Below are positions 1-14,603 of a stretch of DNA of 64,000 nucleotides, one piece after another. The first letter of the stretch is position 1. Every line of letters starts with the position of its first letter. Below the pieces are notes generated by a model that saw only the letters and a program-made list of their open reading frames with translations, did no database searches and had not been told where the DNA came from. The stretch lies in the NCBI RefSeq assembly GCF_001899645.1, contig NZ_MKVV01000093.1:1-64000 (forward strand), given 5' to 3'. The position numbers and the translations under genes are program-made. The DNA comes from Pseudonocardia sp. 73-21 (GTDB lineage: Bacteria; Actinomycetota; Actinomycetes; Mycobacteriales; Pseudonocardiaceae).

Positions 1-286
1 GGCACGAGTCAGGTCCGAACCCGTCGAGGTACTTGTCGAGCAGCTCGTCGACGGTCGCGTTGGTGCGTGGGGCCCGACGCTCCGCAACCTCCTGGAGGAG
101 GCGGGCGCGGATGGCCTCGGCCTCGTTCCACGCGTTGCGGCCGGCGGCGACCGTCTCGGTCAGGTAGTGCCGCTTGCCCGTGAACGGGTCGACGCCGGCG
201 TACACGCGCACACGAAGAGCCCCGCTCCGCAGCGTCTCGATTCCGCCGCGGGCGCGGGCCCGTCCCGTGCCTGGACGACCGGTCAC
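1..286 (-). CDS. Tyrosine recombinase/phage-type integrase, N-terminal part, truncated by window edge
   Basis: My own minus-strand translation from GTG at 286: VTGRPGTGRARARGGIETLRSGALRVRVYAGVDPFTGKRHYLTETVAAGRNAWNEAEAIRARLLQEVAERRAPRTNATVDELLDKYLDGF..., typical arm-binding plus SAM-like N-terminus of actinobacterial integrases. Not in ORF track because it runs off the edge. Confidence 0.8.
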   Translation of the reverse strand, partial: MTGRPGTGRARARGGIETLRSGALRVRVYAGVDPFTGKRHYLTETVAAGRNAWNEAEAIRARLLQEVAERRAPRTNATVDELLDKYLDGFGPDSC

Positions 287-378
287 GAGGGCACTGTAAC
301 CACGACTCGCACCACATGTGATGCCACGCGAGCTGACTCAGTGATCTTGCTGCCAGAGTTTCCCCTGGTCAGAGGTGG

Positions 379-449
379 AGCGGGCGACGGGAATCGAACC
401 CGCGTAGCTAGTTTGGAAGACTAGGGCTCTACCATTGAGCTACGCCCGC
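379..449 (-). tRNA. tRNA-Gly (anticodon TCC)
   Basis: Minus strand GCGGGCGTAGCTCAATGGTAGAGC...CTAGTCTTCCAAACTAG...GGGTTCGATTCCCGTCGCCCGC; acceptor, D, anticodon and T arms pair. Confidence 0.95.
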
Positions 450-2866: not shown

Positions 2867-3499
2867 TCATCGTGCCGCCGCCTCGGGGTTGAGCACGAAC
2901 AGGCCCGCGACCTGGCCGTCGGCCGCGAACGCGACGCGGCCGGTCAGGTCGCCCGCCTCGAACGCCAGGGGCACGTCGACGACCGTGTGGTCGCCCTGCC
3001 GCCGCACGAACGGCTCGCCCGGCCCCTCGTAGGCGCCGACGGTGTCCACCACCGTGGCCCAGGTGTCCGCCAGTTTCGCGGCGGGCAGCGCCGCGGCCAT
3101 CGTCGCGTCGAACCGCCGGAACACCGCGTCCCACCCGCCCGCGGCGAGCGCTGTGAAGATCTCGACGGCCCCTGCATCGGCGCCGTCCAGTGTGGCCCGG
3201 TCCATCTGCTTCCCCGTCCTCGGATCGATCGGTCGTCCGAAGCGCTGGAACGCGGCCTGCCGCGTGGTGCCGAGGGCGTCACCGATCTGCTGCCATGTGC
3301 CGTCGGCCTCCCGGGCCGCGTCGACGGCGGCCGCGAGTACGCGGTCGGCCCGCCGGCGCACCTCCAGGGCGTCGTGGATCCGGGCGAACGCCGCGGCCTG
3401 CCCGTCACCGGGGAGGTCCGCGCCGGCGAGGTCGACGCCGGCGGCCAGCCCGCGCACCGCTCGGTCGAGATCGGCCACGGCGGCTTCGAAGGACGGCAC
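2867..3499 (-). CDS. DUF3887-like domain protein
   Basis: 210 aa ORF; N-terminal helical region with [21 protein letters not shown] followed by a DUF3887-like region ([30 protein letters not shown]). Confidence 0.6.
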
Positions 3500-3541
3500 G
3501 TGTCAAGGCTAGCTTTACAAGCAGTTCTGTCAAGCTCGGGT

Positions 3542-4714
3542 TTACAACCGGCGCGCGCGGCTCTCGAGGTAGTGCCGCTCGGGCAGGCTCGACGTCCCGC
3601 GCGCGGCCAGCCGGTAGGCGGCGCGCGCCGCGTCGAGGTCGCCGGCCCGCTCCAGCAGGTGTGCGCGGACGGCGTCGACGCGGTGGTGACCGCCGAGGTC
3701 GACGCCGTCCAGCTCGGCCAGCCCGGCGGACGGGCCGTGCACCATCGCCACGGCGACGGCGCGGTTCAACGTGACCATCGGGCCGGGGGTGAGGGACGCC
3801 AGGAGGTCGTAGAGCGCCAGGATCTGCGCCCAGTCGGTGTCCTGCGCCCGGCCCGCCTCGGCGTGCACGGCGGCGATCACGGCCTGCAACTGGTAGGGCC
3901 CGATCGGGGCGCGGGCCAACGTCGTGGTGATCAACGACGTGCCCTCGGCGATCATGACGGTGTCCCAGCGGGTGCGGTCCTGCTCCTCCAACGGGACGAG
4001 CGAGCCGTCGGCGAGGGTGCGCGCGGGGCGCCGCGCGTCGGTGAGCAGCATGAGCGCCAGCAGGCCGGCCACCTCGCCGTCCTCGGGCAGCGTGCGACGC
4101 AGCAGCCGGGCCAGACGGATCGCCTCCGCCGTCAGCTCCACCCGGTGCAGCGCCTCGCCGGAGCCGGCGGTGTAGCCCTCGTTGAAGATCAGGTAGAGCA
4201 CCTGGAGGACGGCGCCGACCGCGTCCGGCGAGGCCGCGAAGGCGACGCCCCGGATCCGCGCCTTGGCCCGGCTGATCCGCTGCGCGATCGTCGCCTCGGG
4301 CACGAGGTAGGCGCGGGCGATCTCGGCGGTGGTCAGGCCGCCGACCGCGCGCAGCGTCAGCGCCACCTGTGACGCGCGTGTGAGCGACGGGTGGCAGCAC
4401 AGCACGAGCAGCGTGAGGGTGTCGTCGGTGTCGGGGACCGGCGCCGCCTCGGGCCGGAAGGCCTCCTCGCGGCGACGGCGCGCCGTGTCGCTGCGCCACG
4501 TCTCCGTCCGCCGCCGGGACGCGACGGTGATCAACCAGGCGCGGGGGTTGTCGGGCACCCCGTTGCGCGGCCACTGCTGCGACGCGGCGAGCAGCGCCTC
4601 CTGCACCGCGTCCTCGCACTCGTCGAAGCCGCCGTGGTGGCGGACGACGGCGGCGAGCACCTGGGGCGCGAGCTCGCGCAGGAGACCATCGAGTTCCCCG
4701 CTGGACCGAGTCAT
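3542..4714 (-). CDS. ECF sigma factor, ECF42-like (YCII-associated)
   Basis: MTRSSGELDGLLRELAPQVLAAVVRHHGGFDECEDAVQEALLAASQQWP..., LTTAEIARAYLVPEATIAQRISRAKARI; immediately upstream YCII partner gene. Confidence 0.88.
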   Translation of the reverse strand: MTRSSGELDGLLRELAPQVLAAVVRHHGGFDECEDAVQEALLAASQQWPRNGVPDNPRAWLITVASRRRTETWRSDTARRRREEAFRPEAAPVPDTDDTLTLLVLCCHPSLTRASQVALTLRAVGGLTTAEIARAYLVPEATIAQRISRAKARIRGVAFAASPDAVGAVLQVLYLIFNEGYTAGSGEALHRVELTAEAIRLARLLRRTLPEDGEVAGLLALMLLTDARRPARTLADGSLVPLEEQDRTRWDTVMIAEGTSLITTTLARAPIGPYQLQAVIAAVHAEAGRAQDTDWAQILALYDLLASLTPGPMVTLNRAVAVAMVHGPSAGLAELDGVDLGGHHRVDAVRAHLLERAGDLDAARAAYRLAARGTSSLPERHYLESRARRL

Positions 4715-5082
4715 CCCTCGAACGCGGACAGGTCCATCAGCGGCCGCACCTCCACGACGCCGAACGACGCCTCGGGCACCTTCGCGGCGATCTCCACGGC
4801 GCGCTGCTGCGAGTCGCACTCCAGCAGGTAGAAGCCGGCCAGCTGTTCCTTGACCTCGGCGAACGGCCCGTCGGTGGTCATCGTGGCACCGTCGGCGACG
4901 CGCACCTGGACGGTGTGCTCCGGGTAGGCCAGCGGGCTGGAGACGATCTTCTCGCCGGTGGCGTCGAGCTCCTCGTCGAGCGCGCGGTAGGCGGCGAGGC
5001 CGGCGGCGCGCCGCTCGGCGGGCAGGCTCAGGAAGACCTCGCGCGAGGCGGGGTTGTCGTAGATCAGGACGAGAAACTTCAC
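4711..5082 (-). CDS. YCII/DGPF-family protein
   Basis: VKFLVLIYDNPAS...TMTTDGPFAEVKEQLAGFYLLECDSQQRAVEIAAKVPEASFGVVEVRPL. Confidence 0.88.
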   Translation of the reverse strand: MKFLVLIYDNPASREVFLSLPAERRAAGLAAYRALDEELDATGEKIVSSPLAYPEHTVQVRVADGATMTTDGPFAEVKEQLAGFYLLECDSQQRAVEIAAKVPEASFGVVEVRPLMDLSAFEG

Positions 5083-5162
5083 GATTCCTCCGCGGGGCAT
5101 GTCGAGAACGTCGATCCGGCTCCTACGTCTCCCCTGCCAGCACCGACACCGGAGGAGTCATC

Positions 5163-5546
5163 ATGGACCGCACCGCCTACATCAGCCTTCCCGTACGGGA
5201 TCTCGACGCCGCCACCGCGTTCTTCACCGCGCTCGGGTTCGCGTTCGACGCCCGGGTGCGGGACGAGAACACCGCGTGCCTGGTGCTCGGCACCGGCGCG
5301 CTGGTCATGCTGCAGAAGACGGCCTACTTCGAGCGGTTCACCGGCGGGCCCGTCGCCGACCCGTCGACGAAGGAGGTCTCCGTGGGGCTGAGCGCCGTGA
5401 GCCGCGAGGAGGTCGACGACCTGGTGGACCGCGCCGTCGCCGCGGGCGGCAAGGACGCCGGACGGCAGGACATGGGCGTCATGTACATGCGCGCGTTCCT
5501 CGACATCGACGGCCACCGCTGGTCGTTCCTGCACGTCGCGAACTGA
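5163..5546 (+). CDS. VOC family (glyoxalase-like) protein
   Basis: MDRTAYISLPVRDLDAATAFFTALGFAFDARV...DIDGHRWSFLHV. Confidence 0.85.
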   Translation: MDRTAYISLPVRDLDAATAFFTALGFAFDARVRDENTACLVLGTGALVMLQKTAYFERFTGGPVADPSTKEVSVGLSAVSREEVDDLVDRAVAAGGKDAGRQDMGVMYMRAFLDIDGHRWSFLHVAN

Positions 5547-5557
5547 GAGGGTGGGTC

Positions 5558-5926
5558 ATGCTCGAGCACTCGAAGGCGTTCAGCGGGTTCTCCGTGGACG
5601 ACATCGCCGCGGCCCGGACGTTCTACGCCGACACGCTGGGCCTGCGCGTCACGGAGGCCGAGGGACGGCTGACGCTGCACCTCGCGGGGGACCGCGACAC
5701 GATCGTCTACCCGAACTCCGCCCACGTCCCGGCCGCGTTCACGATCCTGAACTTCCCCGTGCCGGACGTCGACGCGGCGGTGGACGCGCTCACCGCCCGC
5801 GGCGTGGTGTTCACGGTGAACGACTACACCGACGAGCGGGGCGTGCAACGGACGTACGGGCCGCCGATCGCGTGGTTCACCGACCCGGCGGGCAACATCC
5901 TGTCGGTCATCCAGACGGGCGGGTGA
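5558..5926 (+). CDS. VOC family (glyoxalase-like) protein
   Basis: MLEHSKAFSGFSVDDIAAARTFYADTLGLRV...IAWFTDPAGNILSVIQ. Confidence 0.85.
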   Translation: MLEHSKAFSGFSVDDIAAARTFYADTLGLRVTEAEGRLTLHLAGDRDTIVYPNSAHVPAAFTILNFPVPDVDAAVDALTARGVVFTVNDYTDERGVQRTYGPPIAWFTDPAGNILSVIQTGG

Positions 5927-6383
5927 GCTCGCGCGCCACGGCCCTCCAGAACGGCACCGCCGCGAAGAAGACGCCGCCGAGCGCGATCACCCCGACCGCC
6001 GCGTCGACGCTCTTGCGGCCGTCGTTGGCCCAGTAGACGTCCTGGAGGTCGACGAGCAGGGCCGCCTCGTCGACGATCAGGGCCGAGCCGGTGCCGTAGG
6101 CGGCCGCCATGACGGGGCGGTCGCGCAGCGGGCCGGGGCGCAGGCCCACGCCCCCGACCAGCGCGAGCAGCAGGATCCCGATGTTGTAGTGGTGCAGGTG
6201 CCGCCCGCCCACGACCATGCCCCCGGCGGCGGGGCCGTGGCCGTCGTGCAGCCACGTGGTGACGGCGCGCGTGATGCCGAACGTGACCCCGAACCCCAGC
6301 CACGCAACGAGCGGCGGGCGCTCGGCCGGGCCGACGTGCTTGTCGTAGGCGGCGCGCAGCCGCGTGGTCAGGGGCGCCCGCAT
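5907..6383 (-). CDS. Integral membrane protein of unknown function
   Basis: 158 aa ORF, several hydrophobic segments, GMVVGGRHLHHYNIGILLLALVGG. Confidence 0.65.
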   Translation of the reverse strand: MRAPLTTRLRAAYDKHVGPAERPPLVAWLGFGVTFGITRAVTTWLHDGHGPAAGGMVVGGRHLHHYNIGILLLALVGGVGLRPGPLRDRPVMAAAYGTGSALIVDEAALLVDLQDVYWANDGRKSVDAAVGVIALGGVFFAAVPFWRAVARELTRPSG

Positions 6384-6683: not shown

Positions 6684-9169
6684 GCCATCGCTCCGTTCGT
6701 CGAGGACGTGCCGTCGCGGACCGGCACGATCGGCAGCGGGATCAGCGGCAGGGCGTCGGAGAACTGGCCGGGGGTGGCGGGTGCGCGGCCCTCGGTCCAC
6801 GGGTCGACGTAGGCGTCGACGGCGGTCTGGATCCGTTCCTCGAGCCCGGCCACGAGGCCGTCGCGGTCGTCGACGAGCAGCGCCCGCAGCTCGTCGAGAC
6901 CCACCCGCGGCACGAAGTCGTAGGTGCGCTCCAGCCACTTCGCGTTCTCGCGGTAGTACTGCACGAAGACCCCGGTCAGCCGCACGGCCTCGTCCCGGCC
7001 GTCGACGGTGGCGAGCACGTCGCCCCGGCGGACCGACGCCCCGGCCGCGCCACCGATGTAGATCTCCCAGCGGTTGTCGCCGACCGCGACGATCCCGATG
7101 TCCTTCACCATCGACTCCGCGCAGTTGCGCGGGCAGCCCGACACGGCGAGCTTCATCTTCGCGGGGCTCTCCAGGCCGGAGAAGCGCTCCTCGATGTCGA
7201 CGCCGAGCTGGGTGGAGTCGCCGAGGCCGTAGCGGCAGAAGTCGGTGCCCACGCACGTCTTCACGGTGCGCATCGACTTGCCGTAGGCGTAGCCCGAGGG
7301 CATGTCGAGGTCCTCCCAGACGGCGGGCAGGTCCTCCTTGCGGACGCCGAGCAGGTCGATCCGCTGCCCGCCGGTCACCTTGATCACGGGGATCTGGAAC
7401 TTGTCGGCGACGTCGGCGATGCGACGCAGCTCGGCCGACGTCGTGACACCGCCGGCCATCCGCGGGACGACGGAGAACGTGCCGTCGCGCTGGATGTTGG
7501 CGTGCACGCGGTCGTTGATGAAGCGGGCGTCCTTCTCGTCGACGAACTCGCCGGCCCAGACGACCTTGAGCAGCGAGGCCAGGGGCATCTTGGACGGGGC
7601 GTGCTCGCCGTCGGGGGCCAGCGCGGCGAACACCTGCGACACCGAGCGGAGGCCCTGCGCACGCACCGCTTCGATCAGCTCGGCCTTGGGAAGGGGGATC
7701 GACGGCACGTACCAGCCCGCGCTCTCGTCGACCTCCACCTGCCCGTCGGCCGCCCACTCGACGATCTGCGTGACGAGCGACGTGCACGACCCGCAGCCCT
7801 TCCCCGCGCGGGTCGCGGCCATCACGCCGGTCACCGAGCGGGTCCCGTTCGCCACGCAGGAGACCAGCGCGCCCTTGCTGACACCGTTGCAGTTGCAGAC
7901 CTGCACCGCGTCGTCCATCTCGGCGGCACCCTCGGCCTCCGACGGCCCGGCGAGGGTGAACAGCAGCTCCACGCGCTCGTCGGGCAGCGGCAGGCCGCGG
8001 TCGAAGCTCTGCGTCAGGAACGCGACCTTCTCGACGTCGCCGAGCAGGGTGGCGCCGACCAGCTTGCCGTCGCGCACCACCACCGACTTGTAGACGCCGC
8101 GCCGGGGCTCGGAGAACCGCACGAACTCGTCGTCCTCGCGCTCGGGGCGCATGATCCCCATCGTGGCGACGTCCACGCCCGCGACCTTGAGCTTCGTGGC
8201 GTTGCGGGAGCCGTGGTAGGCGGCCTCGACGTCGGTGCCGGTGATGTGGTCGGCCAGCACGGCGGCCTGCTCCCACAGCGGCGCGACGAGTCCGTAGACC
8301 TGCCCGCGGTGCTGAGCGCACTCCCCGACGACGTAGATGTCGGGGTCGTCGACGCTCCGCATCTGGTCGTCGACGACGATCGCGCGCTCGACGGTGAGCC
8401 CGGAGACCACCCCGAGCCCGACGTTGGGGCGGATGCCGGCGGTGACCACGACCATGTCGGCGTCGATGGTGGAACCGTCGCCCAGCACCACGCCCGCCAC
8501 CGATCCCGTACTGCGCACCGCCGACGGCCGCTGCCCGGTGTGCACCTGGATCCCGAGCTTCGTCTCCAGGACGCGGCGCAGGATGGCGCCCGCCTCCTCG
8601 TCGAGCTGCTGGTTCATGAGCACCGGCCCGCCCTGCACGACGTGCACCGCGAGCCCGTGCTGCTGCAGCCCGTAGGCCGCCTCCAGCCCCAGCAGTCCGC
8701 CGCCGATGACGACGGCGGAGTGGTGGTCGCGGGCGTAGTCGAGCATCGCGGTGGTGTCGTCCATCGTGCGGAAGCCGAAGACGCCGGGGGTGAGCGTGCG
8801 GTCGTCGACCCACATGCCGTCCATCGGCGGGAAGAACGTGCGACTGCCCGTTGCGATGATCAGCTTGTCGTAGGACAGGACGGTGCCGTCGTCGGCGAAC
8901 ACCTTGCGCGCGAAGCGGTCCACCCGCACGACCCGGACGCCGGAGTGCAGGGTGATGTCGTTCTCGGCGTACCACTCGAGCGGGTTGAGGTAGATCTCGT
9001 CGCTGCCCTCACCGGCGAGGACGTGGCTGAGCATGATCCGGTTGTAGTTGCCGTAGGGCTCGTCGCCGAACATCGTGATCCGGAACTGCCCGCTCCCGCC
9101 GCGCGCCAGGATCTCCTCCACCGCGCGGGCCCCCGCCATGCCGTTGCCGATCACCACCAGGTCGTCCAC
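6680..9169 (-). CDS. nirB: Nitrite reductase large subunit
   Basis: 829 aa; FAD/NAD domains, CNCNGVSKG BFD-like motif, C-terminal sirohaem/4Fe4S motif TCVGTDFCRYGLGDS...VSGCPRNCAES. Confidence 0.95.
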   Translation of the reverse strand: MDDLVVIGNGMAGARAVEEILARGGSGQFRITMFGDEPYGNYNRIMLSHVLAGEGSDEIYLNPLEWYAENDITLHSGVRVVRVDRFARKVFADDGTVLSYDKLIIATGSRTFFPPMDGMWVDDRTLTPGVFGFRTMDDTTAMLDYARDHHSAVVIGGGLLGLEAAYGLQQHGLAVHVVQGGPVLMNQQLDEEAGAILRRVLETKLGIQVHTGQRPSAVRSTGSVAGVVLGDGSTIDADMVVVTAGIRPNVGLGVVSGLTVERAIVVDDQMRSVDDPDIYVVGECAQHRGQVYGLVAPLWEQAAVLADHITGTDVEAAYHGSRNATKLKVAGVDVATMGIMRPEREDDEFVRFSEPRRGVYKSVVVRDGKLVGATLLGDVEKVAFLTQSFDRGLPLPDERVELLFTLAGPSEAEGAAEMDDAVQVCNCNGVSKGALVSCVANGTRSVTGVMAATRAGKGCGSCTSLVTQIVEWAADGQVEVDESAGWYVPSIPLPKAELIEAVRAQGLRSVSQVFAALAPDGEHAPSKMPLASLLKVVWAGEFVDEKDARFINDRVHANIQRDGTFSVVPRMAGGVTTSAELRRIADVADKFQIPVIKVTGGQRIDLLGVRKEDLPAVWEDLDMPSGYAYGKSMRTVKTCVGTDFCRYGLGDSTQLGVDIEERFSGLESPAKMKLAVSGCPRNCAESMVKDIGIVAVGDNRWEIYIGGAAGASVRRGDVLATVDGRDEAVRLTGVFVQYYRENAKWLERTYDFVPRVGLDELRALLVDDRDGLVAGLEERIQTAVDAYVDPWTEGRAPATPGQFSDALPLIPLPIVPVRDGTSSTNGAMA

Positions 9170-9170
9170 G

Positions 9171-9518
9171 TCAGACCTCCACCAGTCCGAGATCGATCAC
9201 GATGGTGCCGGTCAGGCCCTCCCGCGCGGCGAGGTGCACCTCCAGCACCGAGCCGTCCTCCAGGTCCTCGACGACGGCCAGCGCGACGTGCGTGCTCGCG
9301 CGGGCGCCGATCGGGAAGTAGCGCATCGGCGCGCCGTCGCGGGCCAGCAGCACCGTGACCAGCTCGTCGGTGCCGTTGCCGCCGCGGAAGTACAGCGGCT
9401 GGGCCGTGACGCCCGGGGGCACCGTGTAGGTCAGGTCCGGGTGCAGCAGCACGGGCTTGTCCACGCCGGAGCCCTCGATCGGGAAGATCCCCTGCAGGAA
9501 CGCGGGTTTGCTGATCAT
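9171..9518 (-). CDS. Conserved hypothetical protein between nirB and nitrate reductase genes
   Basis: MISKPAFLQGIFPIEGSGVDKPVLLHPDLTYTVPPGVTAQPLYFRGGNGTDELVTVLLARDGAPMRYFPIGARASTHVALAVVEDLEDGSVLEVHLAAREGLTGTIVIDLGLVEV; overlaps the nitrate reductase stop. Confidence 0.75.
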   Translation of the reverse strand: MISKPAFLQGIFPIEGSGVDKPVLLHPDLTYTVPPGVTAQPLYFRGGNGTDELVTVLLARDGAPMRYFPIGARASTHVALAVVEDLEDGSVLEVHLAAREGLTGTIVIDLGLVEV

Positions 9519-11605
9519 CGGCGGTTCTCCTCGAGATCGGGGACGGTGGAACGCGCGCGGACGGGGGCCAGCGCGACGGCGCAGGACTTGAACTCCGGCA
9601 TCCGCGACGTCGGGTCCAGCCGCGCGCTGGTGAGGTCGTTGACCCGGGCCCAGTGGAAGGGCAGGAACACCGTGTCGGGGCGGATGCCGTCGGTCAGCCG
9701 GGCGGTGGCGACGACGCTGCCGCGGCGCGTGGTGAGCCGCAGCGCGTCCCCGTCGGCGACGCCGATCTCGGCCGCCAGCAGCGGGTGCAGCTCGGCGTAG
9801 GCGACGGGCTCGGCGGCGAGCAGCGTCTCGTTGCGCCGGGTCTGGGTGCCCGACTGGTAGTGCGTGCGCGAGCGCCCGGTCGTCAGCAGGTACGGGTAGC
9901 GGCGGTCCAGCCGCTCGGTGACGCTGCGGTGCGCGACGGCGACGAACCGCGCGCGCCCGTCGGGCGTCGGGAACGTGTCGGTGAACAGCCGCGGCGAACC
10001 GGGGTGGGTCTCGTCGGGGCAGGGCCAGAACAGCTCCTCGCCGGCGTCGAGGCGCTCCCAGCTGATGCCGCCGTAGTCGGCGACGCCGCCCGCGCTGGCC
10101 CGGCGCAGCTCGTCGTAGACCACTCGCGGGTCGGTCGGGAAGTGCTTCCCGCGGCCCAGGCGAGCGGCGAGCTCGTGCCAGATCTGCAGCTCCGAGCGCA
10201 CGCCCGGCGGCGGGTCCAGGACCCGACGACGGCGCACCACCCGTCCCTCCAGGTTCGTCAGCGTGCCCTCCTCCTCCGCGAACTGGGTGGTGGGCAGCAC
10301 GACGTCGGCCAGCCGGGCGGACTCGGAGAGGAAGAAGTCGGTGACCACCAGAAGGTCGAGCGCGCCCAGCCGTTCCGCGACGTGGCGGGCGTCGGGTGCC
10401 GACACCACCGGGTTCGACGCCGCGAGCAGCAGCACCCGCACCCCGCCGTCGGTGCCGAGGCGGTCGAGCAGCTCGTAGGCCGAGACGCCGGGCGCCGGAA
10501 GCTCGTCCGGGTCGATCCCCCACACGCCTGCGACGTGCGCGCGGGCGGCCGGGTCGGCGAGCGGCCGGTAGCCGGGGAGCTGGTCGGCCTTCTGCCCGTG
10601 CTCGCGGCCGCCCTGCCCGTTGCCCTGCCCGGTGACGGTGGCGACGCCGCTCCCCCGCCCCCGGCCGGGCAGGCCCAGCGCGAGGCCGAGGTTGATCCAC
10701 GCGGTGGCCGTCGCGGTGCCGTCGGCGTGCTGCTCGGCGCCGCGTGCGGTGAGGATCATGGCGTTCCGCGCCGTGGCCAGGTCGTGCACGGTGGCCGTCA
10801 GGTCGGCGACGGGGACGCCGGTGACGCGCTCGGTGCGGTCGGGCCAGTCGGCGCGCACCGACCGGCGCACGGCGTCCCAGCCGGTGGTGCGGCGCTCGAT
10901 GTAGTCGTGGTCGACGAGGCCGTCGCGGATCGCGATGTGCAGCATCCCGTTGGCCAGTGCGAGGTCGGTGCCGGGCACGGGCTGAAGGTGGCGGTGGGCC
11001 GGTTTCGCCGTCGCGGTCTCGCGGGGGTCCACGACGATGTGCCGGGCCCCGCGCTCGCGGCCGGCCTCGAACCACCGCATCGCGGGCGGCATCGTGTCGG
11101 CCGGGTTGCTGCCGACGAGCAGCACCACGTCGGCGTCGGCGACGTCGGACAGCGGGAAGGGCAGGCCGCGGTCGATGCCGAACGCGCGGTTGGCCGCCGC
11201 CGCGGCGGACGACATGCAGAACCGGCCGTTGTAGTCGATCATCGCGGTACGCAGCGCGACCCGGGCGAACTTGCCGAACTGGTAGGCCTTCTCGTTGGTC
11301 AGCCCGCCCCCGCCGAAGCAGCCGACGGCGTCGCGGCCGTGCGCGGCCTGGGCCCGGGTGATCGCCGCCGTCACGCGGTCGAGCGCGTCGTCCCAGGTCA
11401 CGGGGCGGAGCGGGAGGCCGGGGCGGTCGCGGGCCAGCGGGGTGGTGAGGCGCTCGGGATGGGTGATCAGCTCCGCCGCGCGGACGCCCTTCATGCACAG
11501 GCCGCCGCGGTTGACGGGGAAGTCCTCCCGCCCGGTCAGCTCCAGCGCCGGGGTGAGGTGGATGCCGCACTGCAGCGAGCAGTAGGGGCAGTGGGTGGCA
11601 GCCAT
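9515..11605 (-). CDS. Molybdopterin oxidoreductase, assimilatory nitrate reductase-like
   Basis: 696 aa; MAATHCPYCSLQCGIHL 4Fe4S motif, bis-MGD domains, adjacent to nirBD. Confidence 0.88.
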   Translation of the reverse strand: MAATHCPYCSLQCGIHLTPALELTGREDFPVNRGGLCMKGVRAAELITHPERLTTPLARDRPGLPLRPVTWDDALDRVTAAITRAQAAHGRDAVGCFGGGGLTNEKAYQFGKFARVALRTAMIDYNGRFCMSSAAAAANRAFGIDRGLPFPLSDVADADVVLLVGSNPADTMPPAMRWFEAGRERGARHIVVDPRETATAKPAHRHLQPVPGTDLALANGMLHIAIRDGLVDHDYIERRTTGWDAVRRSVRADWPDRTERVTGVPVADLTATVHDLATARNAMILTARGAEQHADGTATATAWINLGLALGLPGRGRGSGVATVTGQGNGQGGREHGQKADQLPGYRPLADPAARAHVAGVWGIDPDELPAPGVSAYELLDRLGTDGGVRVLLLAASNPVVSAPDARHVAERLGALDLLVVTDFFLSESARLADVVLPTTQFAEEEGTLTNLEGRVVRRRRVLDPPPGVRSELQIWHELAARLGRGKHFPTDPRVVYDELRRASAGGVADYGGISWERLDAGEELFWPCPDETHPGSPRLFTDTFPTPDGRARFVAVAHRSVTERLDRRYPYLLTTGRSRTHYQSGTQTRRNETLLAAEPVAYAELHPLLAAEIGVADGDALRLTTRRGSVVATARLTDGIRPDTVFLPFHWARVNDLTSARLDPTSRMPEFKSCAVALAPVRARSTVPDLEENRR

Positions 11606-11652
11606 CGCGGACCAGCGTCGGTGGGAAGCGTGACCGCCGGGTTGTCGGCCCG

Positions 11653-12204
11653 TTACGGTCGCGACCCGTCCGCCTCACGGTCGTCCGCGGCCGCCGTGAG
11701 GGTGCGGACGTGGGCGCGGACCGCGGCCGTGGTGCGCTCGACGTCGCCGGTGGCCAGGAGGTCGAGCAGGGCGCCGCGGAGCACGGCGAGGGACCCGGTG
11801 GCCCCGCCCAGCACGGCGAGCCAGTCCCGCACCGTGGCCTCGGCGAAGCCGGCCCACGGCCCGTCGGGTTCGACGAGCGAGCGGGCGTAGGACTCCACCC
11901 AGAGCGTCAGCAGCGCGCGGTGCTCCGGCGCCGAGAGCCAGTCCCAGATCCGGCCCACCGCAACCGGCCCGTGCCCGACGTCGGGCAGGACCGCGAGCTC
12001 GTCGGCCCTCGCCCGGCCGAGCAGGGCCCGGACGAGGCCGTCCTTGGACCCGAAGAGGTAGATCAGCACGCGCGGGCTGGAACCGATCGCCTCGGCCAGC
12101 GGGCGCAGCGACATCCCGGAGAGGCCGTGCCGCAGCACGTGGGCGTAGGCGAGGCCCAGCAGCTCCTCGCGCCGGGCCGACGGGGGTTGCGCGGGTTCGG
12201 TCAC
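11653..12204 (-). CDS. TetR/AcrR-family transcriptional regulator
   Basis: N-terminal HTH RREELLGLAYAHVLRHGLSGMSLRPLAEAIGSSPRVLIYLFGSKDGLVRALL. Confidence 0.85.
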   Translation of the reverse strand: MTEPAQPPSARREELLGLAYAHVLRHGLSGMSLRPLAEAIGSSPRVLIYLFGSKDGLVRALLGRARADELAVLPDVGHGPVAVGRIWDWLSAPEHRALLTLWVESYARSLVEPDGPWAGFAEATVRDWLAVLGGATGSLAVLRGALLDLLATGDVERTTAAVRAHVRTLTAAADDREADGSRP

Positions 12205-12248
12205 CGGGTCAGTATCACTGAAACACTCGTTTCAGTGGCGGAGGCATC

Positions 12249-12836
12249 GTGTCCGAAGTGGTGATCCGGCCGTTGGGACGACCCGGCGACCTGGGCTGGG
12301 TGGTGATGGCCCACGGCGAGCTCTACACCGGGGAGTTCGGGTGGGACGCGTCGTTCGAGACGCTGGTAGCGCGGATCGTGGCCGACCACGCCGGCCGCGA
12401 CGACGACGGGCGGGCGGGCGCCTGGATCGCCGAGCTCGACGGCCGCCGGGTGGGCTGCGTCTTCTGCACGCCTGCGGACCACCAGACCGCCCAGCTGCGG
12501 ATCCTGCTCGTGCACCCCGATGCGCGCGGTCACGGCCTGGGCCGCCGTCTGGTGGACACCTGCGTCGACTTCGCGCGGGACGCCGGCTACAGCGGCGTCC
12601 GGCTGTGGACCAACGACGTGCTCGCCGCCGCGCGGTGCATCTACCTCAACGCGGGCTTCCGGCTCGTCGGGGAGGAGCGCCACCACAGCTTCGGGGTGGA
12701 TCTGGTGGGCCAGGACTACGTACTGGACCTGCGGACCCGGGCCGCCCAGCGCACCGTCCAGACCGACAGCCCGACGAGCACCGCCACCAGCATTGCCGTG
12801 GACAGCCCCACCATCCCGTCGATCGGCAGCAGGTAG
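12249..12836 (+). CDS. GNAT family N-acetyltransferase
   Basis: LLVHPDARGHGLGRRLVDTCVDFARDAGYSGVRLWTND...AARCIYLNAGFRLVGEE; C-terminal tail after about 12733 looks non-native. Confidence 0.85.
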   Translation: MSEVVIRPLGRPGDLGWVVMAHGELYTGEFGWDASFETLVARIVADHAGRDDDGRAGAWIAELDGRRVGCVFCTPADHQTAQLRILLVHPDARGHGLGRRLVDTCVDFARDAGYSGVRLWTNDVLAAARCIYLNAGFRLVGEERHHSFGVDLVGQDYVLDLRTRAAQRTVQTDSPTSTATSIAVDSPTIPSIGSR

Positions 12837-13318
12837 ACCAGCGGGACGCGGATCGCCGCCTCGGCCAGCAGCCCCACACCCCACACCGTCGAGGTGAAGC
12901 GGTAGCCGCGCCGGACACCCTTGTCGGTGCGGTACTCCTCCCCGAGCTCCTCGGCCTCCGCGGGCGACCAGCCCTGCCGGGCCGCGAGCGTGAGCGGCCG
13001 GTCCCCGACCAGCACCGTGGCGAGGAAGGTGAGGCCCACCGCGCCCGTCACGAACGAGTCCTTGAGCAGCAGGAACCGCGGATCCCCGCTGACGAACGAC
13101 AGGATCAGCCCGAGCCCGAACACCACGAGCGTCACGGTGGCGAACAGGTCGAGGGAACGCCGGCGGGCCGCCACCCACACGATCCGCAGGGCGGCGACGA
13201 GCGTGGAGGCGAACAGCGCGACCCAGTCCGACGCGCCCAGCAGGTGCAGCACGTAGTAGGCCACCACGGGCGCGCCGACGTCGACGGCGAGGCCGCGGAG
13301 CAGCGTCACGACGTTCAT
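12716..13318 (-). CDS. VC0807-family-like integral membrane protein
   Basis: MNVVTLLRGLAVDVGAPVVAYYVLHLLGASDWVALFASTLVAALRIVWVAARRRSLDLFATVTLVVFGLGLILSFVSGDPRFLLLKDS; TGATG junction with the gene upstream. Confidence 0.7.
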   Translation of the reverse strand: MNVVTLLRGLAVDVGAPVVAYYVLHLLGASDWVALFASTLVAALRIVWVAARRRSLDLFATVTLVVFGLGLILSFVSGDPRFLLLKDSFVTGAVGLTFLATVLVGDRPLTLAARQGWSPAEAEELGEEYRTDKGVRRGYRFTSTVWGVGLLAEAAIRVPLVYLLPIDGMVGLSTAMLVAVLVGLSVWTVRWAARVRRSST

Positions 13319-14603
13319 CAGTCCTCGATCCAGGAGCCGTGGAAGCCCGCCGGCACCCCGCGGGGCAGTGTCACGGCCGCCACCGCCGGCCCGGCGAGGT
13401 CGGCTGGGTCGAGCACGAGCAGCTGTGACACGGAGCCGTCGCGCCGCGTGGTGATGGTGAGCAGCCAGCCGTCGTCCTCCGCGGTGCCGTCCTGCGCGGG
13501 CACGAACACGGCCTCGCCCGCGGCGGCGTCCAGCGGGTGGGTGTCCACGGTGCCGGTCGCGTCGTCGTACTCGACGATCGCAGCGATGCCTCGCGCCTCC
13601 GCGGCAGAAGGTGCGTCGGCGCCGTCGGAGACCGCGTGGAGGTAGCGCGACGCGCGGCCGACCAGCCGGTCGTCGAGCGTGGGGAACTCGACGGGACGGT
13701 CGTCGCGGGCGGTCTCGGTGACGGAGCCGGTGGCCGGGTCGAGCGTCCACCGGTGCAGGCGGGCCACACCGAGCGCCGCGGCGTCGGCGGCCGGAGTGGC
13801 CGGGGTGGCCGGGGTGGCGCCGCCCAGCCGCGACCACATCGCGACGGTGTCGGCGGCGGAGTAGCGGGCCCCGTCGAGGACGATCCGGCCCGGCGCGTCG
13901 GTGTGGGCGGAGCCCACGTGGAGGACGTAGCACGGGTCGATGCCCAACCAGCGCACGTGGCCGGGGCGGTCCAGTTCCATGATCCCGATGCGGGCCGCGC
14001 AGCCGTCGTCCCAGGCGTCGGGCATGCCCTGGCTGACCAGGTCGAACCGGAACGTCACGGGCAGGTCGAGGAACACCGCGTGCCGGTCGGTGATCGCGAA
14101 GTCGTGCGTCTTCGACGGCCCGGCGCCCGGGATCCCGGCGCTCACCACGAGCTCACCGCCGAGAGCCGGTGGTAGGTCAGGTGCGGCGCGATCGGTGAGT
14201 AGCCGAAGAAGCGCAGGTCCGGCCGCCGTGCTCGAGCACGTGGGTGTTGGCCGAGACGGCGGCCCGGTCGACGGTGCCGTCGGGGCGGACGAAGGGGTGC
14301 CCGGCCAGCTCGCCGCGCACCCAGCGGCGGTACCACTCCGCGCGGCCGTCGCGCAGCCGCACCGTCTTGCTGCCCCCCGAGGGGCCGCCATCCGATGGCC
14401 CGGCCGGGACAGGAGCCGTGATCATGGCCGGTGAACCAGTGCCCCGGGTCCGCCCCGGGGAGCGGGTTGGGCCCGTTGCGCAGGTAGCGGCCGGTGAGCT
14501 CGGGAGGCAGCGCGCCCTCGACTGGCAGGTCGACGGTGTCGATCTCGTCGGGGACGGGGGCGAGGTGGCCGGCGAGGCAGGTCGCCGCCGGGGGCGTGGT
14601 CAT
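13318..14603 (-). pseudogene. Carotenoid oxygenase (RPE65/CCD family), disrupted
   Basis: MTTPPAATCLAGHLAPVPDEIDTVDLPVEGALPPELTGRYLRNGPNPLPGADPGHWFTGH, then RLRDGRAEWYRRWVRGELAGHPF...SANTHVLEHGG in another frame, then DLRFFGYSPIAPHLTYHRLSA, then KTHDFAITDRHAVFLDLPVTFRFD in a third frame. Confidence 0.8.

Follow-up and report, generated by a model that had tools for sequence, protein, structure and literature searches.

The T4SS-type ICEs and IMEs of Actinobacteria with MOBF relaxases combine a tyrosine integrase at a tRNA 3' end with a MobF relaxase and a VirD4-like coupling protein, show tandem insertion, and carry toxin-antitoxin genes (Ghinet et al. 2011, PMC3218068; PMC5704250). AICEs also target tRNA 3' ends (PMC3218068), the classical ones using an integrase, an excisionase, a rolling-circle Rep, and a single FtsK-like dsDNA translocase. 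The CIMEs, cis-mobilizable elements related to ICESt1, are att-bounded segments without integrase found in tandem with other elements (PMC5704250). In the IntTn916 subgroup of integrases, the arm-binding domain consists of three strands followed by a helix, and arm sites are repeated near the core (PMC8138268).

The window analyzed here is a stretch of 64,000 nucleotides, bases 1-64000 of contig C93 in a 7.09-Mb draft genome of Pseudonocardia. In our joint explanation of the data, the start of the window is very probably the right-hand (tRNA-side) end of a mobilizable element in integrated form, for which IME is the best label. The locus has in common with the T4SS-type elements the integrase at a tRNA 3' end, the relaxase, the coupling protein, tandem insertion, and toxin-antitoxin genes. 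Unlike T4SS-type ICEs, the element has no detected VirB4-type pore gene and possesses NUDIX, GntR, and DUF2637 genes, as AICEs typically do; unlike ICEs and IMEs of this type, a toxin-antitoxin pair lies just within the distal end in several genomes. The integrase, excisionase, GntR, NUDIX, and DUF2637 genes and the tRNA target are shared with AICEs of the pSAM2 type, but a relaxase and a coupling protein replace Rep and the FtsK-like TraB.

Integrase, tRNA-Gly, and attachment core

An open reading frame on the minus strand (2-286, GTG start at 286) leaves C93 at its left edge. Since the window starts at base 1 of C93, the frame is cut by the end of the contig and not by the edge of the window. 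Alone, the 95-aa fragment had no usable family match, a direct domain search giving no NCBIfam match and only a weak, spurious, sub-threshold Pfam match to GlgE. Nevertheless, DNA 17-469 is 94% identical to that of another genome (G082) that has an intact integrase gene, and the fragment can thus be identified as an integrase. The G082 protein is complete (601 aa), with a phage integrase domain (PF00589, 56.8 bits) and a GntR tail (PF00392); the catalytic domain is therefore seen in the 94%-identical orthologue, the window holding only the N-terminus. This 5' part of the tyrosine integrase gene (17-286, minus strand, 90 codons) encodes a predicted N-terminal arm-binding domain, as judged from the identity to G082 and from a structure model. 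The named relatives of the integrase are for the most part from Pseudonocardia species. Bases 1-16 fall outside the match to G082, which begins at base 17, and an error at the contig end or in the assembly may explain the mismatch. The integrase of this genome may also be broken, the remainder of the gene being absent from the assembly. C38:567-1571 was considered as the missing half, as it begins at residue 96, but it is a separate pseudogene with 49% identity. It is one of two more decayed integrases of the same family (L119, near the end of C38), the other being found at tRNA-Arg(CCT) on C31 (L044, 59-616).

The integrase N-terminus faces the 3' end of tRNA-Gly(TCC), as the initial annotation had proposed; the arrangement was confirmed by ARAGORN, the open frame, and the identity to G082. 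ARAGORN places the tRNA on the minus strand, as annotated, at 376-449, the annotation having given 379-449. The gap of about 90 bp between integrase and tRNA was found again in many loci, so the arrangement is not due to chance. The 3' half of the tRNA lies within a 58-bp attachment core (362-419), identical over 58/58 bp to C32:18800-18857. This agrees with the initial annotation, which had predicted a core in the tRNA 3' half and had named beforehand a repeat of the tRNA 3' end as the feature to search for. Four such copies were found on three other contigs: the one in C32, two in C85 (3173-3230, 98%, and 5904-5957, 96%), and one in C84 (6223-6257, 97% over 35 bp). Among these five core places, only C93 has a complete tRNA.

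Between species, the right side of the tRNA is better conserved than the left, which is not conserved, in line with the expected lack of synteny on that side. The conserved chromosomal right flank spans 732-1274 (congener DNA matches 732-1280) and includes a tRNA-Pro(TGG) gene (1198-1274) that is close to tRNA-Gly in many congeners. On the left, no gene was common to many species, and a MerR gene to the left of the array was found in three genomes only.

Probable distal end and class of the element

In window orientation, C32 presents the core copy, an arm site, a small antitoxin-like gene, a PIN-type (VapC-like) gene, low-GC cargo, a MobF relaxase (1,443 aa), a VirD4-like coupling protein (634 aa), a DUF2637 protein, and an excisionase. 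These are followed by an NsdA-like regulator, NUDIX and GntR genes, and more low-GC cargo with a TIR-like gene. The GC content of the cargo is about 51-58%, versus about 67-77% in the backbone. The relaxase matched TrwC (PF08751, 197.8 bits) and exceeded the cut-off of the NCBIfam MobF model; the coupling protein matched T4SS-DNA_transf (73.9 bits) and TraG-D_C; the excisionase domain was above its cut-off, and GntR and DUF2637 were matched too. Gene calls other than these named matches come from a simple script. The cargo of C32 also encodes a 969-aa membrane protein without any family match (L043, 4849-7758, minus strand). In five genomes (L043, 8348-8545; L112, 11819-12345; L201; L199; L193), a PIN-type toxin-antitoxin pair is located some 220-300 bp inside the distal core, all with the antitoxin-like gene and most with the PIN gene alongside.

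Comparison of the sequences suggests that C93 and C32 belong to a single element of about 19 kb or more, each holding one of its ends. Because of the assembly gap between them, this join is based on a relative and on sequence matches. The integrase is linked to the C32 module mainly by the gene order on a single contig of P. bannensis (L109: tRNA, integrase, GntR, NUDIX, HTH regulator, Xis) together with a single contig of G082 (L203) whose integrase, NUDIX, HTH, and Xis genes are 94%, 93%, 95%, and 95.5% identical, respectively. The integrase could instead be an isolated remnant, C32 being the end of another element at the same site. Truncated or decayed integrases do occur at the inner att copies of G075, G066, G061, and G074 and at the tRNA copy of G032, and bases 1-16 diverge from the integrase sequence. 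However, C93 and C32 have in common the arm variant CACATGTGATGCCA and the identical 58-bp core, and in G082 a single contig carries both parts, which makes this alternative quite improbable. Relaxase and integrase of this family are found together in the same genomes, often near each other, and the complete chromosome of G080 carries a full element of 33 kb, bounded by two core copies, that includes an integrase, a MobF relaxase, a coupling protein, and a cargo of sulfur-compound genes.

In G082, the cargo beside the integrase (L203, 2043-8668) includes an OLD/GajA-like ATPase-nuclease, a trypsin-like protein, and two unknown genes. A HicAB-hydrolase junction in this genome was considered as a site-specific exchange and rejected, as no core remnant was detected there. 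The tRNA-Gly(TCC) gene is complete on each of two G082 contigs (C109 and C516; L188 and L189), which suggests that this assembly contains two strains or a duplication.

Taking the C93-C32 element as one, it shows two features of an IME: a site-specific integrase accompanied by an att site at either end (cores are present in C93 and in C32, and G080 shows the complete arrangement) and its own relaxase (TrwC/MobF in C32). Neither C32 nor the G080 gene list contained a VirB4 gene, the window's own element having a sequence gap, and self-transfer is accordingly doubtful. In the whole genome, apart from the remaining C32-C93 gap, PF03135 was absent and the sole PF12846 match was on C80. An ICE with a distant or unrecognized pore is a possible alternative label. 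The C80 match is a VirB4-like AAA_10 gene (C80:61760-62746), about 12 kb from an integrase (74590-75129) at tRNA-Gly(CCC); judging from these genes, C80 may hold a second conjugative element, a candidate helper.

The initial annotation had proposed the boundary of an integrative element, pointing to AICEs and temperate phages, and had called for a search for excisionase, replication, or transfer genes. The boundary was borne out, and C32 indeed carries excisionase and transfer genes along with its core copy. A classical AICE would account for the integrase, excisionase, GntR, NUDIX, and DUF2637 genes and for the tRNA target, and the same tRNA holds a second integrase type in other species. Against this, the motor is of the T4SS-DNA_transf/TraG-D_C type in both C32 and G080 and the processing enzyme of C32 is a TrwC/MobF relaxase, whereas FtsK_SpoIIIE and Rep domains (RepSA, RepAM, and Prim-Pol) were absent from the scanned C32 proteins, with the gap remaining. 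The AICE label fails because the motor and the relaxase are of the single-strand type, and we regard it as very unlikely. Phages too integrate at tRNA 3' ends, with the integrase gene adjoining att. A prophage boundary is nonetheless extremely unlikely, given the conjugation genes in C32 and in the complete G080 element and the lack of phage structural genes among the scanned proteins. On the whole, the initial interpretation is supported, with an IME in place of an AICE.

In the mechanism that we propose for such an IME, the integrase would recombine attP with the tRNA 3' half, the tRNA being restored. Its N-terminal beta-sheet domain would grip heptamer arm sites, its catalytic domain would work on the core, and the excisionase would tip the balance toward excision. 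A single strand would be handed over by the relaxase and the coupling protein to a mating pore that is produced elsewhere. These putative functions are assigned from gene families.

A probable hot spot with tandem arrays and remnants

The element lies to the left of the tRNA, as had been predicted, but the locus is probably composed of several tandem insertions or remnants instead of a single element. Among the 60 Pseudonocardia genomes drawn (rows counted by hand), the tRNA pattern was matched in 57, and 22 had at least two core copies. In G075, four core copies are spread across 100 kb; three integrase genes accompany them, and the two inner ones are truncated. C85 (L040) carries an integrase-free segment of 2.7 kb between two cores (3173-5957), with a HicA-like gene (under the Pfam cut-off) and partner genes. 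The arm site of this segment, GTGTCAC, differs from that of C93 and C32, which suggests that it comes from another integrase lineage. Unlike CIMEs, some core-to-core segments are only about 1.2 kb long and hold a single toxin-antitoxin pair, PIN-type in G009 and HicAB-like in G083. Such att-bounded remnants would result if elements inserted repeatedly at one tRNA and then decayed, and the small segments fit the description of decayed cis-mobilizable elements (PMC5704250). The locus is best read as a hot spot in which tandem arrays occur along with remnants that lack an integrase.

Other genes were observed at these sites. In G032 (contig C7, L101), Type I-E CRISPR-Cas genes (7396-14507; Cas3, Cas8e, and Cas7e matched) sit between two tRNA-Gly cores 15.3 kb apart, together with a decayed integrase. 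An unrelated integrase type, with its C-terminus toward the tRNA, occupies the same tRNA-Gly(TCC) in five loci (L102, L103, L106, L113, and L114); in G065, G066, and G067, this type sits with a RepSA-like gene (identified by eye only).

Arm-type sites and a putative recognition code

A predicted proximal arm-type site, GCACCAC-N5-ATGCCAC, composed of two heptamers 12 bp apart, lies between the integrase and the tRNA (309-327, plus strand). A near-identical distal site is present in C32, about 137 bp inside the distal core. With a strict test allowing at most one mismatch, which leaves out the diverged pair of the window, a heptamer pair with the exact 12-bp spacing was found between integrase and tRNA in 30/37 loci of the family, compared with 1-9 for other spacings and a mean of 2.9 (maximum, 7) in shuffled sequences. 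In seven elements with both ends, proximal and distal heptamers agree in 13-14 of 14 letters, versus a mean of 10.5/14 for unmatched pairs, and only 4 of 5,040 re-pairings do as well as the true pairing. These figures are only supportive, since the elements were picked because both sites were found and the ends are on separate contigs in G033, G028, and the window's genome.

The heptamer pairs might be an operator for autoregulation of the integrase and not arm sites for recombination, as they lie directly upstream of its gene and some integrases have a GntR-type tail. We consider this unlikely: the same site is also present some 137 bp within the distal core, well away from the integrase gene, tail-less integrases (C44 and L133) obey the rule described below, and the predicting residues are located in the N-terminal domain. 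The arm-site and operator roles could also coexist.

The rule was first noticed in the locus table, where base 4 of the heptamer tracks the residue that follows G-x-I. Among 72 unique N-termini, 63 integrases, many of them related, have a heptamer pair in the expected place: 43 combine Glu with C, 15 Asp with T, 3 Gly with G, 1 Leu with C, and 1 Thr with C, and base 4 is alike in both heptamer copies across the 63. All loci outside the discovery table with Glu, Asp, or Gly agree with the rule, some of them being close relatives or copies of table members. The predicting residue holds all 1.05 bits of base 4, the next-best column holding 0.62. A tree built on the catalytic domain shows 11 changes of base 4, 13 of the residue, and 13 of the joint label; every base change thus coincides with a residue change. 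Base 2 follows residue 41 more loosely (0.94 of 1.20 bits), and positions 5-6 (CA) are fixed by the search pattern. It is probable that residue 17, numbered as in the window's integrase, sets base 4 (Glu-C, Asp-T, and Gly-G) and that residue 41 largely sets base 2 (Tyr-C and Arg-G), with a matched label at both ends, so that cross-reaction in tandem arrays could be limited.

The model of the N-terminal domain (mean pLDDT, 74) has strands at residues 15-18, 24-32, and 39-46 and a helix at 52-70, the same order as in the IntTn916 subgroup. Residues 17 and 41 are both on predicted strands, and we infer a direct contact between residue and base. Relative to that subgroup (PMC8138268), the domain sequence matches Pfam Arm-DNA-bind_4 weakly (best E value, 0.06), and covariation of residue and base is not described in the literature found. 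Foldseek returned nothing significant with the model, a sequence search of the PDB gave no match for the domain, and no published residue-base code was found in the open literature searched.

An integrase beside a tRNA is routine, and the element is of a known kind; less expected is how cleanly one integrase residue pairs with one base of the DNA site in this family. The useful part is a large natural set of integrases and arm sites showing which residues pick which bases. The locus also shows defense and toxin-antitoxin genes building up at one tRNA in an environmental genus. If true, the code would offer a rule for how tyrosine integrases choose their arm sites, would pair the ends of elements across contigs, and would predict which resident integrases act on which remnants.
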